Shown here piece by piece: positions 15,899 to 30,749 of a DNA stretch of 38,884 bases; position 1 is the stretch's first letter, and every line of letters begins with the position of its first letter. Origin of the DNA: an uncultured Bacteroidales bacterium (GTDB taxonomy: Bacteria > Bacteroidota > Bacteroidia > Bacteroidales > Bacteroidaceae); contig CACXKA010000019.1 of the NCBI GenBank assembly GCA_902768125.1, positions 1 to 38,884 of the forward strand, read 5' to 3'. The notes beneath the pieces were generated by a model, which searched no databases, was not told the origin of the DNA, and was given only the letters and a program-made list of their open reading frames with translations. The position numbers were made by a program, and so were the translations under genes.

Positions 15899-16058
15899 AA
15901 AAGGGAGAAAAGTCACTTCTATACAACGTAGCTGTTTGATAAGACAAGAATTATCCAGAGAGATATCACTTTGGGGTAAAAATAATGGTTTGTGATAAAA
16001 AAGTGTGAAAATATTGCAAAAATTCAGAGATTATTAATTTTATTTTATAGAAAATACC

Positions 16059-16066
16059 TAAATTTG
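16059..16066 (+). promoter_or_regulatory. -7 box for the second AAA_14 ATPase
   Basis: TAAATTTG, matching TAnnTTTG, 49 bases before the ATG at 16115. No exact TTTG lies 19 bases upstream, but the flank is AT-rich. Confidence 0.5.
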
Positions 16067-16114
16067 TAAACCAAACTTTATAAAATCGCATAATTCTTAT
16101 TAAATTTAATTTAT

Positions 16115-17368
16115 ATGAGTATTAGTAAAGATGTCATCAAGCAGTGCGTGATTAGTAAGCAGCGCGAAGTGGATGAGGCGGTGATTGTGAACCGTCCTAT
16201 AGACTTTGAAGAAAATGGCAACTATGTGATAGTTGGCGTGAGGCATGCGGGTAAGTCGTACCTGCTGTATCAACGTGTGCGACAACTACAGGCTGCAGGA
16301 AAGGGATGGGACGAGATTCTGTTTGTGGACTTTGAGGATGAGCGTCTGGCAGAATTTCAGACAGAGGACTTCAACAGTCTGCTGGAGGCCCATCTGGAAC
16401 TGTATGGCAAGAAGCCTGTGGTATTTCTGGACGAGGTGCAGAACATTCCACACTGGGATAAGTTCGTGCGGAGACTGACTGATGCTAAATATAGAGTATA
16501 TGTAACGGGCAGCAATGCGAAGATGCTAAGCAAAGAGGTGGCAACGACATTGGGCGGACGCTTCTTCATTTATGATGCGTACCCATATTCATTCAAAGAG
16601 TATCTGGCAGCGCAGCAGGTGGAACTGAGGGAGCATTGGGAGTATGACACGATTCAGAGAAGCGAGGTGAAGCGACATCTGAATGAGTACTTCTATTACG
16701 GTGGTCTACCAGAGATCCTGTCGTTTAAGAACAAGCGGGCTATGCTTTCTAGCTTGTACCAGAAGATTTACCTGGGTGACATCTGTGCCCGAAACAACAT
16801 TAAGAACGACAGAGTGTTGAACATCCTGATTAAGAAGATGGCAGAGAGTGTGAAGCAACCGCTGTCGTATAACAGGCTGAAGAACGTAATAGTGGCAACG
16901 GGGGCGCCTATCAGTGTGCCTACTACGATAGACTATGTGGATTACACCTCTGATAGTTGGCTAATACTGCCCATGGAGAACGAGGTGGGGAAGCTGACGG
17001 AGAAGGAAACACAGAAGAAATACTATTTTGTTGACAACGGACTGCTGAACCTGTTCTTAATGAACTCAGAGACATCACTACTGGAAAACATGGTAGCGGT
17101 GGAGCTGTGCAGGAAGTTTGGCAAGAAGAATGTGTTTTTCCTGAATGCGGAGAAAGAGATAGACTTCATTGTGCCTGATGAGAAGCTGGCCATTCAGGTG
17201 TCGTATAGCATCAAGGAGGAGACCACTTACAATAGGGAGGTGCCGCCATTGGTGAAGTATGCCAAAGCGCATGAGGACTGGAAGTGCCTGCTGATTACTT
17301 ATGATGAGGAGGGCACGGAAGAGGGAATACCCGTGGTGCCGGTGTGGAAGTGGCTGATGGAAGAGTGA
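16115..17368 (+). CDS. ATP-binding protein, AAA_14 / DUF4143 family
   Basis: A 417-residue protein. Walker A is GVRHAGKS (41-48), Walker B VVFLDEVQ with D106-E107, then VYVTGSNAKML and TTLGGRF, the usual AAA_14 order. The C-terminal DUF4143 part includes KKYYFVDNGLLNLFL and KEIDFIVPDEKLAIQVSYSI, the nuclease-like fold's conserved acidic and Gln residues. It shares domains but little close sequence with the protein at 1480-2793, so it is an old paralogue. It is a lone gene next to a repeat-filled gap. Function is unknown; links to mobile DNA or toxin-like modules have been suggested for the family. Confidence 0.9.
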   Translation: MSISKDVIKQCVISKQREVDEAVIVNRPIDFEENGNYVIVGVRHAGKSYLLYQRVRQLQAAGKGWDEILFVDFEDERLAEFQTEDFNSLLEAHLELYGKKPVVFLDEVQNIPHWDKFVRRLTDAKYRVYVTGSNAKMLSKEVATTLGGRFFIYDAYPYSFKEYLAAQQVELREHWEYDTIQRSEVKRHLNEYFYYGGLPEILSFKNKRAMLSSLYQKIYLGDICARNNIKNDRVLNILIKKMAESVKQPLSYNRLKNVIVATGAPISVPTTIDYVDYTSDSWLILPMENEVGKLTEKETQKKYYFVDNGLLNLFLMNSETSLLENMVAVELCRKFGKKNVFFLNAEKEIDFIVPDEKLAIQVSYSIKEETTYNREVPPLVKYAKAHEDWKCLLITYDEEGTEEGIPVVPVWKWLMEE

Positions 17369-21715: not shown

Positions 21716-23014
21716 ATGAAACTTAAATTCTTTTTACCTTTCTTGGCTTTGATGGCCGTTTCAAGTGCATTAATGTCATGTAGTGATGATAATGATGGTG
21801 ACAATAATGATGTATCTTCTGCAGATCCTTTGATGCTGGAAAGCTTTGTTCTGGATGGGATGGAAGAATCAACCATCACACGTTCTGGTGTTGGTGTGGA
21901 TTTTCCTGACAGCGTGAAGTTCCTGGTCTATTTCCAAAACAATGGATTGCCTCAGGGAGACCATAAATATGATATAGGTGTGGCATTATACAATACGAAT
22001 AATCAGAGAATAAAGACTTATGCTCTCTATGATACTATCCCTTGCACGTATGGCAAATCTTACAAGATGGATGATAAGATACAGCTGTCGAAAGATCTCA
22101 GTAATGGCACTTATCTGTTGAAGCCTATTTGTAAGGTGACTGGTGATAAAGAATGGAAAGATATGAAATTGGCTGATGATTTTGCCTTGAGCATCACTAT
22201 CTCTGACAAACAGGCACAACTGAAAGAGGCATTCAAGGATATCATCAAACTGATGAATATCGCTTACAATAAGACTGAAGTGGCTCAAAACGAAAAATTC
22301 AAGGTAACTTTGAATCTTTATGGTAACAACACTTATAAATCCATTCCTGTCTTCCTGGCTCATAAGAATGAGAATAATACTTACCAAAAACTGACAGGTG
22401 AGACTTGGACACCTGATCAAAAGGGAGAAGGTACTGTCACCTTGTCTTATGCTCCTACTGAAGTAGGTAAACAAACTTATTATATCATTACTCCTGTGAG
22501 CGAAGAACCTTTGGCACAATTCAGCATCATCACCAAGGGACAAACTTACGAGATGACTGTAGATAACATTGCTGATGAAGTTGAATACATTCTTGATGAC
22601 AACGCCATCAAGGGTACGATGATTTCGAAGAACTTTGATGATAAAGTTTCTTCTCAAGATATTTATGCGATGTTGATCACCATCGATATGGAAACTTTCG
22701 ATTTCAAGGTTGATTCCCTCTTTAAGAATCCTCAGGAATATCAGAAGATTCATTTCTCTACGCCAAGTCTGGGAGAAGAAAAGATTCCTTTCAGCTTCAC
22801 CAACCTCAATTATGACAGTTACTATGGTGTCACTTATGGCATCAAGGACAAAGATGGCAAGTTTGTAGATATTAGTGGAAACGGTATGTTCATGTTATTC
22901 ACCACCCCATCAGATCCAGAGAATAATGGAGCAAAACGGAGAGTGATGAAATCTCATGCTTACCTGAATAAAATCAGTTACCTGAATGGTAAGAAAGTGA
23001 TGTGGAAGAAATAA
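21716..23014 (+). CDS. Lipoprotein of unknown function with acidic export signal
   Basis: A 432-residue lipoprotein with lipobox SSALMSCSDDNDGDNNDV. The acid-rich stretch after the Cys fits the Bacteroidetes lipoprotein surface-export signal. The rest reads as beta-rich domains (SVKFLVYFQNNGLPQGDHKY, KFKVTLNLYGNNTYKSIPVF), a pattern often found in surface-displayed adhesion or pili-associated proteins, but no known family was recognised. It is followed by a strong terminator (23037-23073) and stands alone behind copy 2 of the duplicated promoter. Codon use looks AT-richer than that of its housekeeping neighbours. Confidence 0.8.
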   Translation: MKLKFFLPFLALMAVSSALMSCSDDNDGDNNDVSSADPLMLESFVLDGMEESTITRSGVGVDFPDSVKFLVYFQNNGLPQGDHKYDIGVALYNTNNQRIKTYALYDTIPCTYGKSYKMDDKIQLSKDLSNGTYLLKPICKVTGDKEWKDMKLADDFALSITISDKQAQLKEAFKDIIKLMNIAYNKTEVAQNEKFKVTLNLYGNNTYKSIPVFLAHKNENNTYQKLTGETWTPDQKGEGTVTLSYAPTEVGKQTYYIITPVSEEPLAQFSIITKGQTYEMTVDNIADEVEYILDDNAIKGTMISKNFDDKVSSQDIYAMLITIDMETFDFKVDSLFKNPQEYQKIHFSTPSLGEEKIPFSFTNLNYDSYYGVTYGIKDKDGKFVDISGNGMFMLFTTPSDPENNGAKRRVMKSHAYLNKISYLNGKKVMWKK

Positions 23015-23036: not shown

Positions 23037-23073
23037 AGCGATATGTTCACCCAACGAACATATCGCTTTTTTT
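23037..23073 (+). terminator. Terminator after the lipoprotein gene
   Basis: AGCGATATGTTC, a 7-base loop, GAACATATCGCT, then TTTTTT. A perfect 12-bp stem with a T run. Confidence 0.95.
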
Positions 23074-23390
23074 ATCATCCTATCATTATATATATTCTTT
23101 TTTATTTTTAATTTTAAAAGAATTATATGATGATATTACTAGCGTGTTGATAATGTGGATAAGTTTTCTAAGTAGTATGTAAATCAAGTAATTAGATTGT
23201 GTAAAACTAGTAGATATGGTATGGAAAAATTTTTGATAAAAAATAATAACTTTTTTTGGTGGTTTGAAAATGATGGAGGTATAAAAATTGTGATGAAATA
23301 TCAAAAAAAAATTATTAGAAGTTATTAAAAAGTTATAAATAGAGTTATGAACAATGTTGTCAACATCTCATGATTATTTCACATTCAGTT

Positions 23391-23582
23391 TTATTGTCTC
23401 AGAAGTTCCATGAATCGCTTTTTCATGGCTTCTTTAAGTTCGTTATCATTCAGAATGAAGTCGTTAACCACTTGTTCGAAAGCTTGTTCTGCTTTCACTC
23501 TCATCTGAGCTTTACCTGCTCGCAATCCAGAAGAAAGTTCAGTTTTTGGCAATAGTTGTCTGTTGAAGTTTCCGTCGCTCAT
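23391..23582 (-). CDS. 63-residue protein encoded inside the oriC candidate
   Basis: A small soluble, charged protein starting MSDGNFNRQLLPKTELSSGL, predicted helical in its second half (EQAFEQVVNDFILNDNELKE). A perfect promoter at 23660-23690 supports it as a real gene. Its roughly 70-base leader contains six DnaA-box-like sites, so DnaA binding would be expected to affect its expression. No family was recognised. A part in initiation control is inference from position. Confidence 0.75.
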   Translation of the reverse strand: MSDGNFNRQLLPKTELSSGLRAGKAQMRVKAEQAFEQVVNDFILNDNELKEAMKKRFMELLRQ

Positions 23583-23659
23583 GATTATGTTGATAAGTTT
23601 GTTGATAGTTATTGTTGATAATCTGTGAATAACCTTGTTGATAAGTTGTTAATAAGTGG

Positions 23660-23690
23660 CAAATTTACAGGTTTTCTTTGACATTGCAAA
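23660..23690 (-). promoter_or_regulatory. Promoter of the 63-residue gene
   Basis: Minus strand: TTTG (23690-23687), 19 bases, TAAATTTG (23667-23660). Transcription should start near 23653 and run straight through the DnaA-box array. Confidence 0.8.
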
Positions 23691-23740
23691 TATTTGAGAA
23701 TTAAAATGATTGAATATTTTTCATTTCCAATATTTCTTCC

Positions 23741-23748
23741 TAATTTTG
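23741..23748 (+). promoter_or_regulatory. -7 box for ribD
   Basis: TAATTTTG, 29 bases before the ribD ATG. Two DnaA-box-like 9-mers (23753 and 23765) lie between this box and the start codon. Confidence 0.6.
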
Positions 23749-23776
23749 CAAGTGTTAATAACTAAGTGGATAAGTT

Positions 23777-24733
23777 ATGAAAGATCTGTTGATAACTGAT
23801 GAAAAGTATATGAGAAGATGTATTCAACTTGCTAAAAACGGGATGTTGAATGCACAACCTAATCCAATGGTGGGTGCTGTGATTGTATATGATGATAAAA
23901 TCATTGGAGAGGGTTATCATGTGCGTTGTGGAGAAGGTCATGCAGAAGTGAATGCTTGTGCATCTGTGAAGCCAGAGAATGAACACTTGTTGAAAGACAG
24001 CACGATTTATGTTAGTTTGGAACCTTGCAGTCATTATGGCAAGACACCTCCTTGTGCTGACTTGTTAGTAAGTAAAGGTTTTAAGCGTTGTGTGATTGGT
24101 TGTCAAGATCCATTTGCCAAAGTGCAAGGAAGAGGTATTAAGAAGTTGAAAGATGCTGGTATCGAAGTAACTGTAGGTGTGTTGGAAGAAGAATGCAAGG
24201 CACTCAACAAGCGCTTCATGACTTATCATGCCCAGCAGCGTCCTTTTGTCACATTGAAATGGGCAGAATCAGCAGATGGTTTCATTGACGGACATATTTC
24301 CAATGCTTACACCCAGATGATTTGCCACAAACGTCGGGCAGAACATCAAGCCATCTTGATAGGAAGAAAGACCTTTGAAGTGGATCATCCTTCCTTGAAT
24401 GTGCGTGAATGGATAGGTAAATCACCTAAACGATATGTGGTGTCTTCTCAACCATTGACGCTCCCAGAAGGTTTTCATTTGGTTCAATCCGCAGATGTTG
24501 CCAACATTCTTCATCAACTTGATGAAGATGGCATCCAGACAGTACTTGTAGAGGGAGGTGCAGAATTGCTTCAGTCGTTTATTGATAGTGGCTTGTGGGA
24601 TGAATGTTACGTCGAAAAGGGAGTGAATACTATCAATGGAAAGATCAAAGCTCCTGTGCTTTCTGAAGCAGCCAAATTGAAAGCAATCAATACCGCTTTC
24701 GGACAACCCATTGAAGAATATGTGAAAGCCTGA
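23777..24733 (+). CDS. ribD: Bifunctional riboflavin biosynthesis deaminase/reductase
   Basis: A 318-residue protein. The N-terminal deaminase (1-145) has the zinc motif GHAEVNA with the catalytic Glu and EPCSHYGKTPPCADLL with two Cys. The C-terminal reductase (150-318) has PFVTLKWAESADGFIDG and VLVEGGAELLQSFIDSGLWD. It carries out the second and third steps of riboflavin synthesis from GTP. No FMN riboswitch was seen upstream. A DnaA-like 9-mer lies within its first codons (23787-23795). It converges on the ComF-like gene with a 5-base gap. Confidence 0.96.
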   Translation: MKDLLITDEKYMRRCIQLAKNGMLNAQPNPMVGAVIVYDDKIIGEGYHVRCGEGHAEVNACASVKPENEHLLKDSTIYVSLEPCSHYGKTPPCADLLVSKGFKRCVIGCQDPFAKVQGRGIKKLKDAGIEVTVGVLEEECKALNKRFMTYHAQQRPFVTLKWAESADGFIDGHISNAYTQMICHKRRAEHQAILIGRKTFEVDHPSLNVREWIGKSPKRYVVSSQPLTLPEGFHLVQSADVANILHQLDEDGIQTVLVEGGAELLQSFIDSGLWDECYVEKGVNTINGKIKAPVLSEAAKLKAINTAFGQPIEEYVKA

Positions 24734-24738
24734 GGTTT

Positions 24739-25491
24739 TTATTCCATCAGAGGCACACCATACACAGACGCTTCTATATTATCCCCATTCAAGGCAGGAA
24801 TGGCTAAACGTGAAGCGATAGCCAGTGTCAGTACTGAAATCTTCACATCAGGCGCTTTAGCCAACTCTTTGGCACAAGAAGCAATCGTGGCTCCTGTGGT
24901 GGTCACATCATCCACAAGAAGAACGTGCTTTCCTTTGATTTTTTCAGGATGTATGAGTTGGAAAATATCCGATACATTATCCGATCGTTGGTGAGCATTG
25001 AGATGCGTTTGTGAAGGATTGTTCTTGGTTCGCTTCACCACACGCTTATCAACAGGAATTCCCGTGATTTCGCTGATACCCTTACAAATATAGTGACTTT
25101 GGTTGTAGTGTCGTTTCAACTGTCTTTTCCAATGAAGCGGCAAGGGAATGAGTATATCGATATCATCAAAGAAATGGTACTCCTGCAACTCTTTCGCATA
25201 AATTCTTGCCAAATAGTGCCCTATTTCTGGATGATTCCAATACTTGATATGATAGATGATATGTCGTGTTTTCTCTCCATCGTGATGAAACATCGATACT
25301 GCTTTTTCGATGGGAAACAAGCCCCAAAACTGCTTCTCCAACAAGCTATGTTCCACCAAATGATACTCTGTGAAAGGTAAGTGCATGAAACAGCGTGTAC
25401 AAATGTGCTTTTCCTGCCCCATCAACCTTTCCCCACACATGATGCAATGTCTGGGCATCAAGAAATCAAAGATGTCAGTCAATACACTCAT
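24739..25491 (-). CDS. ComF-family phosphoribosyltransferase-like protein
   Basis: A 250-residue protein. The N-terminal zinc-ribbon-like part has CIMCGERL and CTRC. The C-terminal PRTase fold has the PRPP loop LLVDDVTTTGATIASCAKEL and the family segment NQSHYICKGISE. ComF proteins are needed for DNA uptake in some bacteria and in others help PriA-linked DNA processing. Its 5' end overlaps recX by 17 bases. Confidence 0.9.
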   Translation of the reverse strand: MSVLTDIFDFLMPRHCIMCGERLMGQEKHICTRCFMHLPFTEYHLVEHSLLEKQFWGLFPIEKAVSMFHHDGEKTRHIIYHIKYWNHPEIGHYLARIYAKELQEYHFFDDIDILIPLPLHWKRQLKRHYNQSHYICKGISEITGIPVDKRVVKRTKNNPSQTHLNAHQRSDNVSDIFQLIHPEKIKGKHVLLVDDVTTTGATIASCAKELAKAPDVKISVLTLAIASRLAIPALNGDNIEASVYGVPLME

Positions 25492-30140: not shown

Positions 30141-30749
30141 TTACAACACCTTAATCAGTTCCACATCAAAGATGAGTGTGGCGAATGGAGGAATAGATGC
30201 ACCTGCCCCACCCTCTCCATAGGCGAGCATGTAAGGGATGTAGAAACGGAACTTGGCTCCCTCTGACATGAGCTGCACACCTTCCGTCCAGCCAGCGATG
30301 ACCTGCTGAAGACCGAAGTCTGCTGGTGCGTTGCGCTTGTAGCTGCTGTCAAAGATGGTGCCGTCGAGCAGACGACCCTCGTAGTGGCAACGAACGGTGT
30401 CGGTTGCCTTGGGTTGCTTGCCAGTGCCTTCAGTGAGCACTTCGTACTGAAGACCGCTCTTGGTCACGATGACGCCTTCCTTCTTGGCATTCTCTGCCAG
30501 GAACTTCGCACCCTCTTCCTTGGCTGCCTTGCCAGCGGCTGCCTTGGCGGCATTCTGCTTCTGTTCCAATTCACGGAAGAAAGCATTCACAATCTGCTGA
30601 CCTTCCTGATGGCTCACCTGAAGCTGATTGTCTTCGAGCACATCCGTGATAGAAGCTGCGAAATCGTTGATGACGAGTTTACCTTTGAGTCCCATTTGCT
30701 TGAGCTGCTGACCGATGCCAAGACCAAGCGCATAACTGAATTTGTCCAT
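30141..30749 (-). CDS. FKBP-type peptidyl-prolyl isomerase
   Basis: A 202-residue protein with an N-terminal dimerisation domain (FKBP_N, ~1-90, [20 protein letters not shown]) and a C-terminal FKBP domain (~105-202: [47 protein letters not shown]). It resembles Mip/FklB, but there is no signal peptide, so it is probably cytoplasmic. It assists proline isomerisation in protein folding. It is divergent from ychF. Confidence 0.94.

Follow-up and report, generated by a model that had tools for sequence, protein, structure and literature searches.

Described origins and the layout of the window

In the sections available to us of the papers cited in this paragraph, a predicted oriC with multiple DnaA boxes has been described at the GC-skew transition of the first chromosome of Prevotella intermedia OMA14, with dnaA not near it, and an oriC away from dnaA is called common in Bacteroidetes (PMC4755523). 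In Porphyromonas gingivalis, the oriC is drawn at dnaA, which is a map convention (PMC5771137). The bipartite origins of Bacillus subtilis and Helicobacter pylori consist of two clusters with a gene between them, one cluster lying by an AT-rich element, and such split origins usually have dnaA as the spacer (PMC4285127). In the present study, we analyzed a window of 38.9 kb, that is, the whole stretch of DNA under study, which is the entire contig C19 of a draft genome of 2.78 Mb in 41 contigs. The region at about 23060-23800 is very probably the chromosomal oriC of this Bacteroidales genome, in a bipartite form and far from dnaA. An origin at this site, which the first-pass annotation had put forward, was supported by conservation within the clade and by a skew switch at the array in pooled relatives. 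Like the predicted oriC of P. intermedia OMA14, the locus combines several DnaA boxes, a skew transition and a remote dnaA; in the present locus, the boxes flank an orphan gene. The sequence layout also agreed with that of the B. subtilis and H. pylori origins in its two clusters, the gene between them and the AT-rich element beside one cluster, whereas the spacer was a 63-aa gene without a Pfam or NCBIfam match instead of dnaA. The less usual aspects here were the orphan spacer gene, the differing neighbors among relatives, and Asn in place of Asp in the box-reading helix of DnaA; among open PMC papers, we did not meet such a spacer gene, such changing neighbors or this DnaA change. The locus provides a testable origin for an uncultured herbivore-gut lineage, which matters when growth rates are estimated from metagenome coverage.

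The 63-aa ORF (P0001; 23391..23582, - strand) separates the left box pair from the right cluster, and its product had no match in Pfam, NCBIfam or PHROGs. The right-hand neighbor was identified as ribD (23777..24733, + strand) by a TIGR00326 match above the cut-off, and the left neighbor, a 432-aa ORF at 21716-23014, had no Pfam match at E 0.001. A PDB profile search yielded three weak matches only (E 0.23-0.55), and tRNA and Rfam scans of the window returned nothing. As had been claimed, dnaA was not nearby; it was located on contig C3 (G000:C3:301363-302775), with one box within the 20 kb around it.

Eleven TGTKRATAA-like boxes in one orientation had been proposed, and all were found at their claimed positions, reading TGT...TAA on the + strand, nine of them exact and two (23600 and 23765) with one mismatch. 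The left pair consists of a DnaA-like box TGTTGATAA (23145..23153) and the abutting box TGTGGATAA (23154..23162), which is an exact TTATCCACA. The six-box row of the right cluster contains TGTTGATAA (23588..23596), the one-mismatch copy TGTTGATAG (23600..23608), TGTTGATAA (23613..23621), TGTGAATAA (23624..23632, an exact TTATTCACA), TGTTGATAA (23636..23644) and TGTTAATAA (23647..23655), and is followed by TGTTAATAA (23753..23761) and the second one-mismatch copy, AGTGGATAA (23765..23773). The last box, TGTTGATAA at 23787..23795, lies within the first codons of ribD, varies among the aligned relatives and may be a chance occurrence. The exact matches to TTATNCACA at 23154 and 23624 were likewise borne out. 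The steps of the six-box row were 12, 13, 11, 12 and 11, with a mean of 11.8 bp, and the helical repeat of DNA is about 10.5 bp. The description of the boxes as helically phased was thus overstated: the row is close-packed, yet at this mean step the boxes are not on one helix face.

To compare the array with chance, 2000 dinucleotide shuffles of 23080-23800 were generated. The exact TGTKRATAA count was 9 forward and 0 reverse, against shuffle means of 0.10 and 0.02 and a maximum of 2, although the consensus was derived from these very sites, so that this count is partly circular. The count with the E. coli box TTATCCACA is not circular; with at most one mismatch, it gave 8 forward and 0 reverse, against means of 0.22 and 0.06 and a maximum of 3. 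Exact TGTKRATAA occurred 10 times in the whole window, 9 of them within 23145-23795 and the tenth at 25046 on the opposite strand. When TTATNCACA was allowed one mismatch over the entire window, 57 sites were counted against 36 expected (the largest of 100 shuffles had 51). The box excess over the whole window is modest, and the strong part is the local clustering. In the 2.78-Mb draft genome, only five close same-direction box pairs were found, four of which lay in the array and one between dnaB and nqrA. These results indicated a DnaA-box cluster beyond chance.

The AT-rich flank and the left module

An AT-rich flank beside the boxes had been suggested as a possible unwinding element, and the composition agreed with this: A+T reached 82% at 23060-23144 and 90% at 23077-23125, against a window mean of 53%. 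Among all 300-bp stretches of the window, those with the highest A+T content (79%) begin at 23051-23091, and the T-rich block is seen again in the aligned relatives; the stretch at 23060..23133 is taken as the candidate unwinding element. The most AT-rich 100 bp of the window lies elsewhere, starting at 16031 (region 16011-16140, 85%), away from the array.

Between this stretch and the left pair, the window carries TAT-TAC-TAG (23134..23142, + strand), a DnaA-trio-like run that reads 3'-GAT-CAT-TAT-5' from the boxes; it is followed by CG and the two abutting boxes. The left half was aligned in 26 rows, comprising the window and 25 of the 27 array loci described below (L082 is cut by its contig end, and L112 has another context). 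The relatives showed a T-rich block, GATGATATTAATAG-like letters, a two-base gap and two abutting boxes. The first box differed from TGTTGATAA at no more than two positions in 22 of the 26 rows, and the second from TGTGGATAA at no more than one position in 16. A box-proximal TAG was observed in 18 of the 26 rows and in none in both control frames. Three triplets all with a middle A occurred in 6 of the 26 rows (control frames, 0/26 and 1/26). The looser count of at least two middle-A triplets says little, as it was reached in 19 rows but also in 16 of 26 in one control frame.

In the available text of the BUS papers (PMC6669920, PMC8287927), the described features are shared with the window, namely tandem boxes, an 11-base spacer from a consensus box, middle-A triplets and a box-proximal 3'-GAT-5'. 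The window's box, 11-base spacer and three middle-A triplets fit the published unwinding-module search rule, as far as it is given in the accessible part of PMC8287927. The differences were that three or more middle-A triplets no farther than 16 bases from the box, although present in the window, were found in only those 6 of 26 rows, and that the commonest box here was TTATCAACA, not TTATCCACA. Judging from these letters, the left part resembles a basal unwinding module. A mechanism can be proposed for such an arrangement. DnaA would occupy the right cluster at 23588-23773 as well as the left pair at 23145-23162, and an ATP-DnaA oligomer would extend leftwards from the left pair onto the trio-like strand at 23134-23142. 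The AT-rich stretch at 23060-23133 would open, and DnaB would be loaded there. The right cluster may help DnaA assembly across the spacer, which is about 425 bp long and contains the 63-aa gene.

Conservation and strand composition of the array

The named contigs contained 213 coding stretches for the 63-aa gene, the best 80 of which were analyzed. At least four boxes surrounded the gene in 27 of these best 80 of 213 loci, with ribD no more than 3 kb away in 24 of the 27, and the other 53 had 0-1 boxes. The array is therefore a trait of the window's own clade; its conservation beside ribD, which had been proposed as a check in other Bacteroidales, held within the clade but not in Bacteroidales at large. 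In the right half, aligned in 25 rows (L080 was omitted besides L082 and L112), the row of TGTTGATAA-type boxes was kept in most rows, not all. Among the box-poor loci, another gene (family F1, sdhC-like by eye) stood next to the 63-aa gene in 21 loci, and in L111 and L114 ribD still adjoins the 63-aa gene, yet there are no boxes. The start of the 63-aa family, MSDGNFNR, was invariant in 42 aligned members, and its tail was variable. A search that covered 37 genomes of the genus and 24 others detected the protein in 32 of the former and in none of the latter, and a profile search of 148 further genomes of the order was negative. The neighborhood of the gene differs among relatives. A role of the 63-aa protein in regulating initiation is a weakened proposal, because in 53 of the best 80 of 213 loci the gene is away from any box cluster. 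The same 53 loci, with their 0-1 boxes, led us to drop the candidate of an origin gene everywhere.

These loci also bear on DnaA-controlled promoters, with boxes that would control ribD and the 63-aa gene without contributing to initiation. The boxes do occupy the upstream region common to these two divergent genes, one of them lying inside ribD, and the pair found between the dnaB and nqrA genes of this genome makes DnaA boxes at promoters plausible in the genus. However, the left pair lies beyond the 3' end of the 63-aa gene rather than at a promoter, three loci (L080, L082 and L112) keep the boxes without ribD beside them, and the skew switches at the array. We regard control of these promoters as highly unlikely to be the whole role of the boxes, and an origin remains the preferred reading.

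As a check, the first-pass annotation had proposed cumulative GC skew of the whole chromosome, with a minimum expected at the array. In the window alone (38.9 kb), no skew inflection or signal was observed there, and the raw cumulative minimum was 7 kb off, at 30645. On single contigs, the raw cumulative GC skew was set aside as too noisy and confounded by coding strand; the distance between its minima and the array ranged from 54 bp to 55 kb. Stretches of nine related array contigs and the window were pooled, long ORFs were called, and GC3 skew was regressed on coding strand and array side. With the 10 contigs oriented alike (604 genes), the sign switched at the array, with a t of 6.38 and its peak at shift 0. 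In a scan with 4-kb steps, t fell to 1.3 at -40 kb and to 3.1 at +40 kb. Flanks of up to 10 kb at 25 named loci (334 genes) gave a t of 2.87, also with the peak at shift 0; these t values are not independent probabilities, as the loci are partly on shared contigs and the species are related. The side term was positive in 8 of the 10 contigs and slightly negative in 2. Contig resampling (300 draws) placed the best shift within 10 kb in 91%, with a 5-95% range of -18 to +8 kb. Contig G011:C21 carries much of the effect, and t was 4.0 without it. At random positions on the same contigs, the observed t was equalled or exceeded in 64 of 1000 (144 of 1000 without G011:C21), a control that is weak because every array contig holds the putative origin. 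For comparison, the pooled dnaB-site contigs (n=4, 188 genes) gave a t of -0.89, with one alone at +2.2 and one at -5.4, and the dnaA contig (104 genes) gave -4.49. At the limited resolution of these data, the sign of the strand bias switches at the array or close to it; since random positions reach the observed t this often, skew locates the origin only roughly. The expected switch was thus found in the pooled relatives, but not in the window by itself.

The skew results help to weigh a datA- or DARS-like site for DnaA titration or reactivation, at which the boxes would soak up or recharge DnaA and initiation would occur elsewhere; titration had been offered beside the origin from the outset. 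Such a site would look like a box cluster without dnaA and would agree with the lack of a skew switch in the window alone. The pooled skew, however, peaks at the array, which places the array at or near the origin, the AT-rich flank and the trio-like run adjoin the box pair, and no denser close-pair cluster was found in the draft genome. Given the skew and the unwinding-like module, a titration or reactivation site is unlikely. We also considered whether the origin might belong to a second replicon, such as a large plasmid or a chromid, instead of the main chromosome. Two-chromosome Prevotella exist, according to the available part of PMC4755523, and the window is a whole 38.9-kb contig; on the other side stand the DnaA-type boxes, the core genes near the array (ribD, and groES and groEL by eye in several relatives) and array-bearing contigs of up to 268 kb. 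A second replicon is accordingly extremely improbable, and the main chromosome is the favored location of the putative origin.

Neighbors of the origin, DnaA and box pairs at other sites

The left-module pattern (at most two mismatches) was detected in 24 of the 45 genomes of the genus, with one match for the reversed control. Among its 30 matches in the genus, 27 were on ribD-type or synthase-type contigs, 2 were elsewhere and 1 was unassessed. The synthase-type loci belong to G008, G001, G027 and G015 (L142, L161, L174 and L255), where the array adjoins a carboxynorspermidine-synthase-like gene, a name based on a truncated protein that scored below the cut-off of the family, and the 63-aa gene is boxless. 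The synthase-type contigs of G027 and G008 gave a pooled t of 2.5 (214 genes), which was equalled by 96 of 1000 random positions. In G016, which has a ribD-type array, the distance to the array is about 5 kb for the synthase-like gene and about 15 kb for a TrmH-like gene, so part of the neighbor change may be local rearrangement.

Across the order, the left-module pattern was found in 19 of 149 genomes including the window's own, against 5 matches in 4 genomes for the reversed control. Among the 19 loci in genomes other than the window's own, 7, representing six families, had nadA within a kilobase (NadA was named by family match in one locus and by similarity in the others), and 4 of these 7 also had a TrmH-type gene, on the other side of the module-like pattern. 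The remaining 12 of the 19 had no nadA within the 2-3 kb read. The nadA loci (L266, L268, L269, L272, L274, L280 and L281) are candidate origins in six other families. Skew at the nadA sites gave t values of 6.6 and 4.8 on two longer contigs, with the best change points 10 and 31 kb off, and 0.9 on one short contig. In the genus itself, nadA was without an array (5 boxes in 30 loci, from 43 genomes with nadA). As read from these sequences, the putative origin has different neighbors in different families, and also among members of the genus. Among open-licence PMC papers, none was found on an oriC with nadA in Bacteroides or on origin relocation.

In the available text of PMC5043019, residues 433-434 of E. 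coli DnaA are described as highly conserved, with 432-435 among the base-contacting residues. For the genus, 30 DnaA loci were sampled from 44 genomes with a match (L359-L388), 29 of which were readable. Within the box-reading helix, the residue that we take to correspond to E. coli Asp433 was Asn in 28 of these 29; the lone exception was one of two copies in G067. In the order-wide sample of 30 loci (56 of 60 genomes matched), Asp was found in all 29 readable loci. The commonest box at the origin loci was TTATCAACA, and position 6 was A in 119 of 174 TTATNNACA sites at 25 origin loci. The candidate explanation that Asn for Asp accounts for this A was dropped, because Asp-keeping families also show TTATCAACA. 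A tentative proposal, somewhat short of probable, is that the origin changed neighbors repeatedly, being near nadA in several other families and, in the genus, near ribD with the 63-aa gene inside or near the synthase-like gene, while DnaA changed from Asp to Asn in its box-reading helix. Related species that differ in origin position, spacer gene and DnaA recognition helix would be useful for studying how an origin changes place.

A three-box tandem pattern was uninformative across the order, as it occurred in 2 of 149 genomes and the window's genome was not among them. One of the two matches, L229 (G097:C120:7270-7338), has six head-to-tail TGTGGATAAGAG units within a 450-aa ORF, which are either a coding repeat or a box array within a gene. 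A DnaA-like box pair was also observed upstream of dnaB, mostly between dnaB and the divergent nqrA; the 30 pair loci examined included dnaB in 13 and nqrA in 10. The dnaB-type loci were L003 (G000:C18:14370-14390), L140, L144, L146, L150, L151, L152, L155, L157, L159, L160, L164 and L167, and their arrangement suggests possible DnaA control of the helicase gene dnaB.
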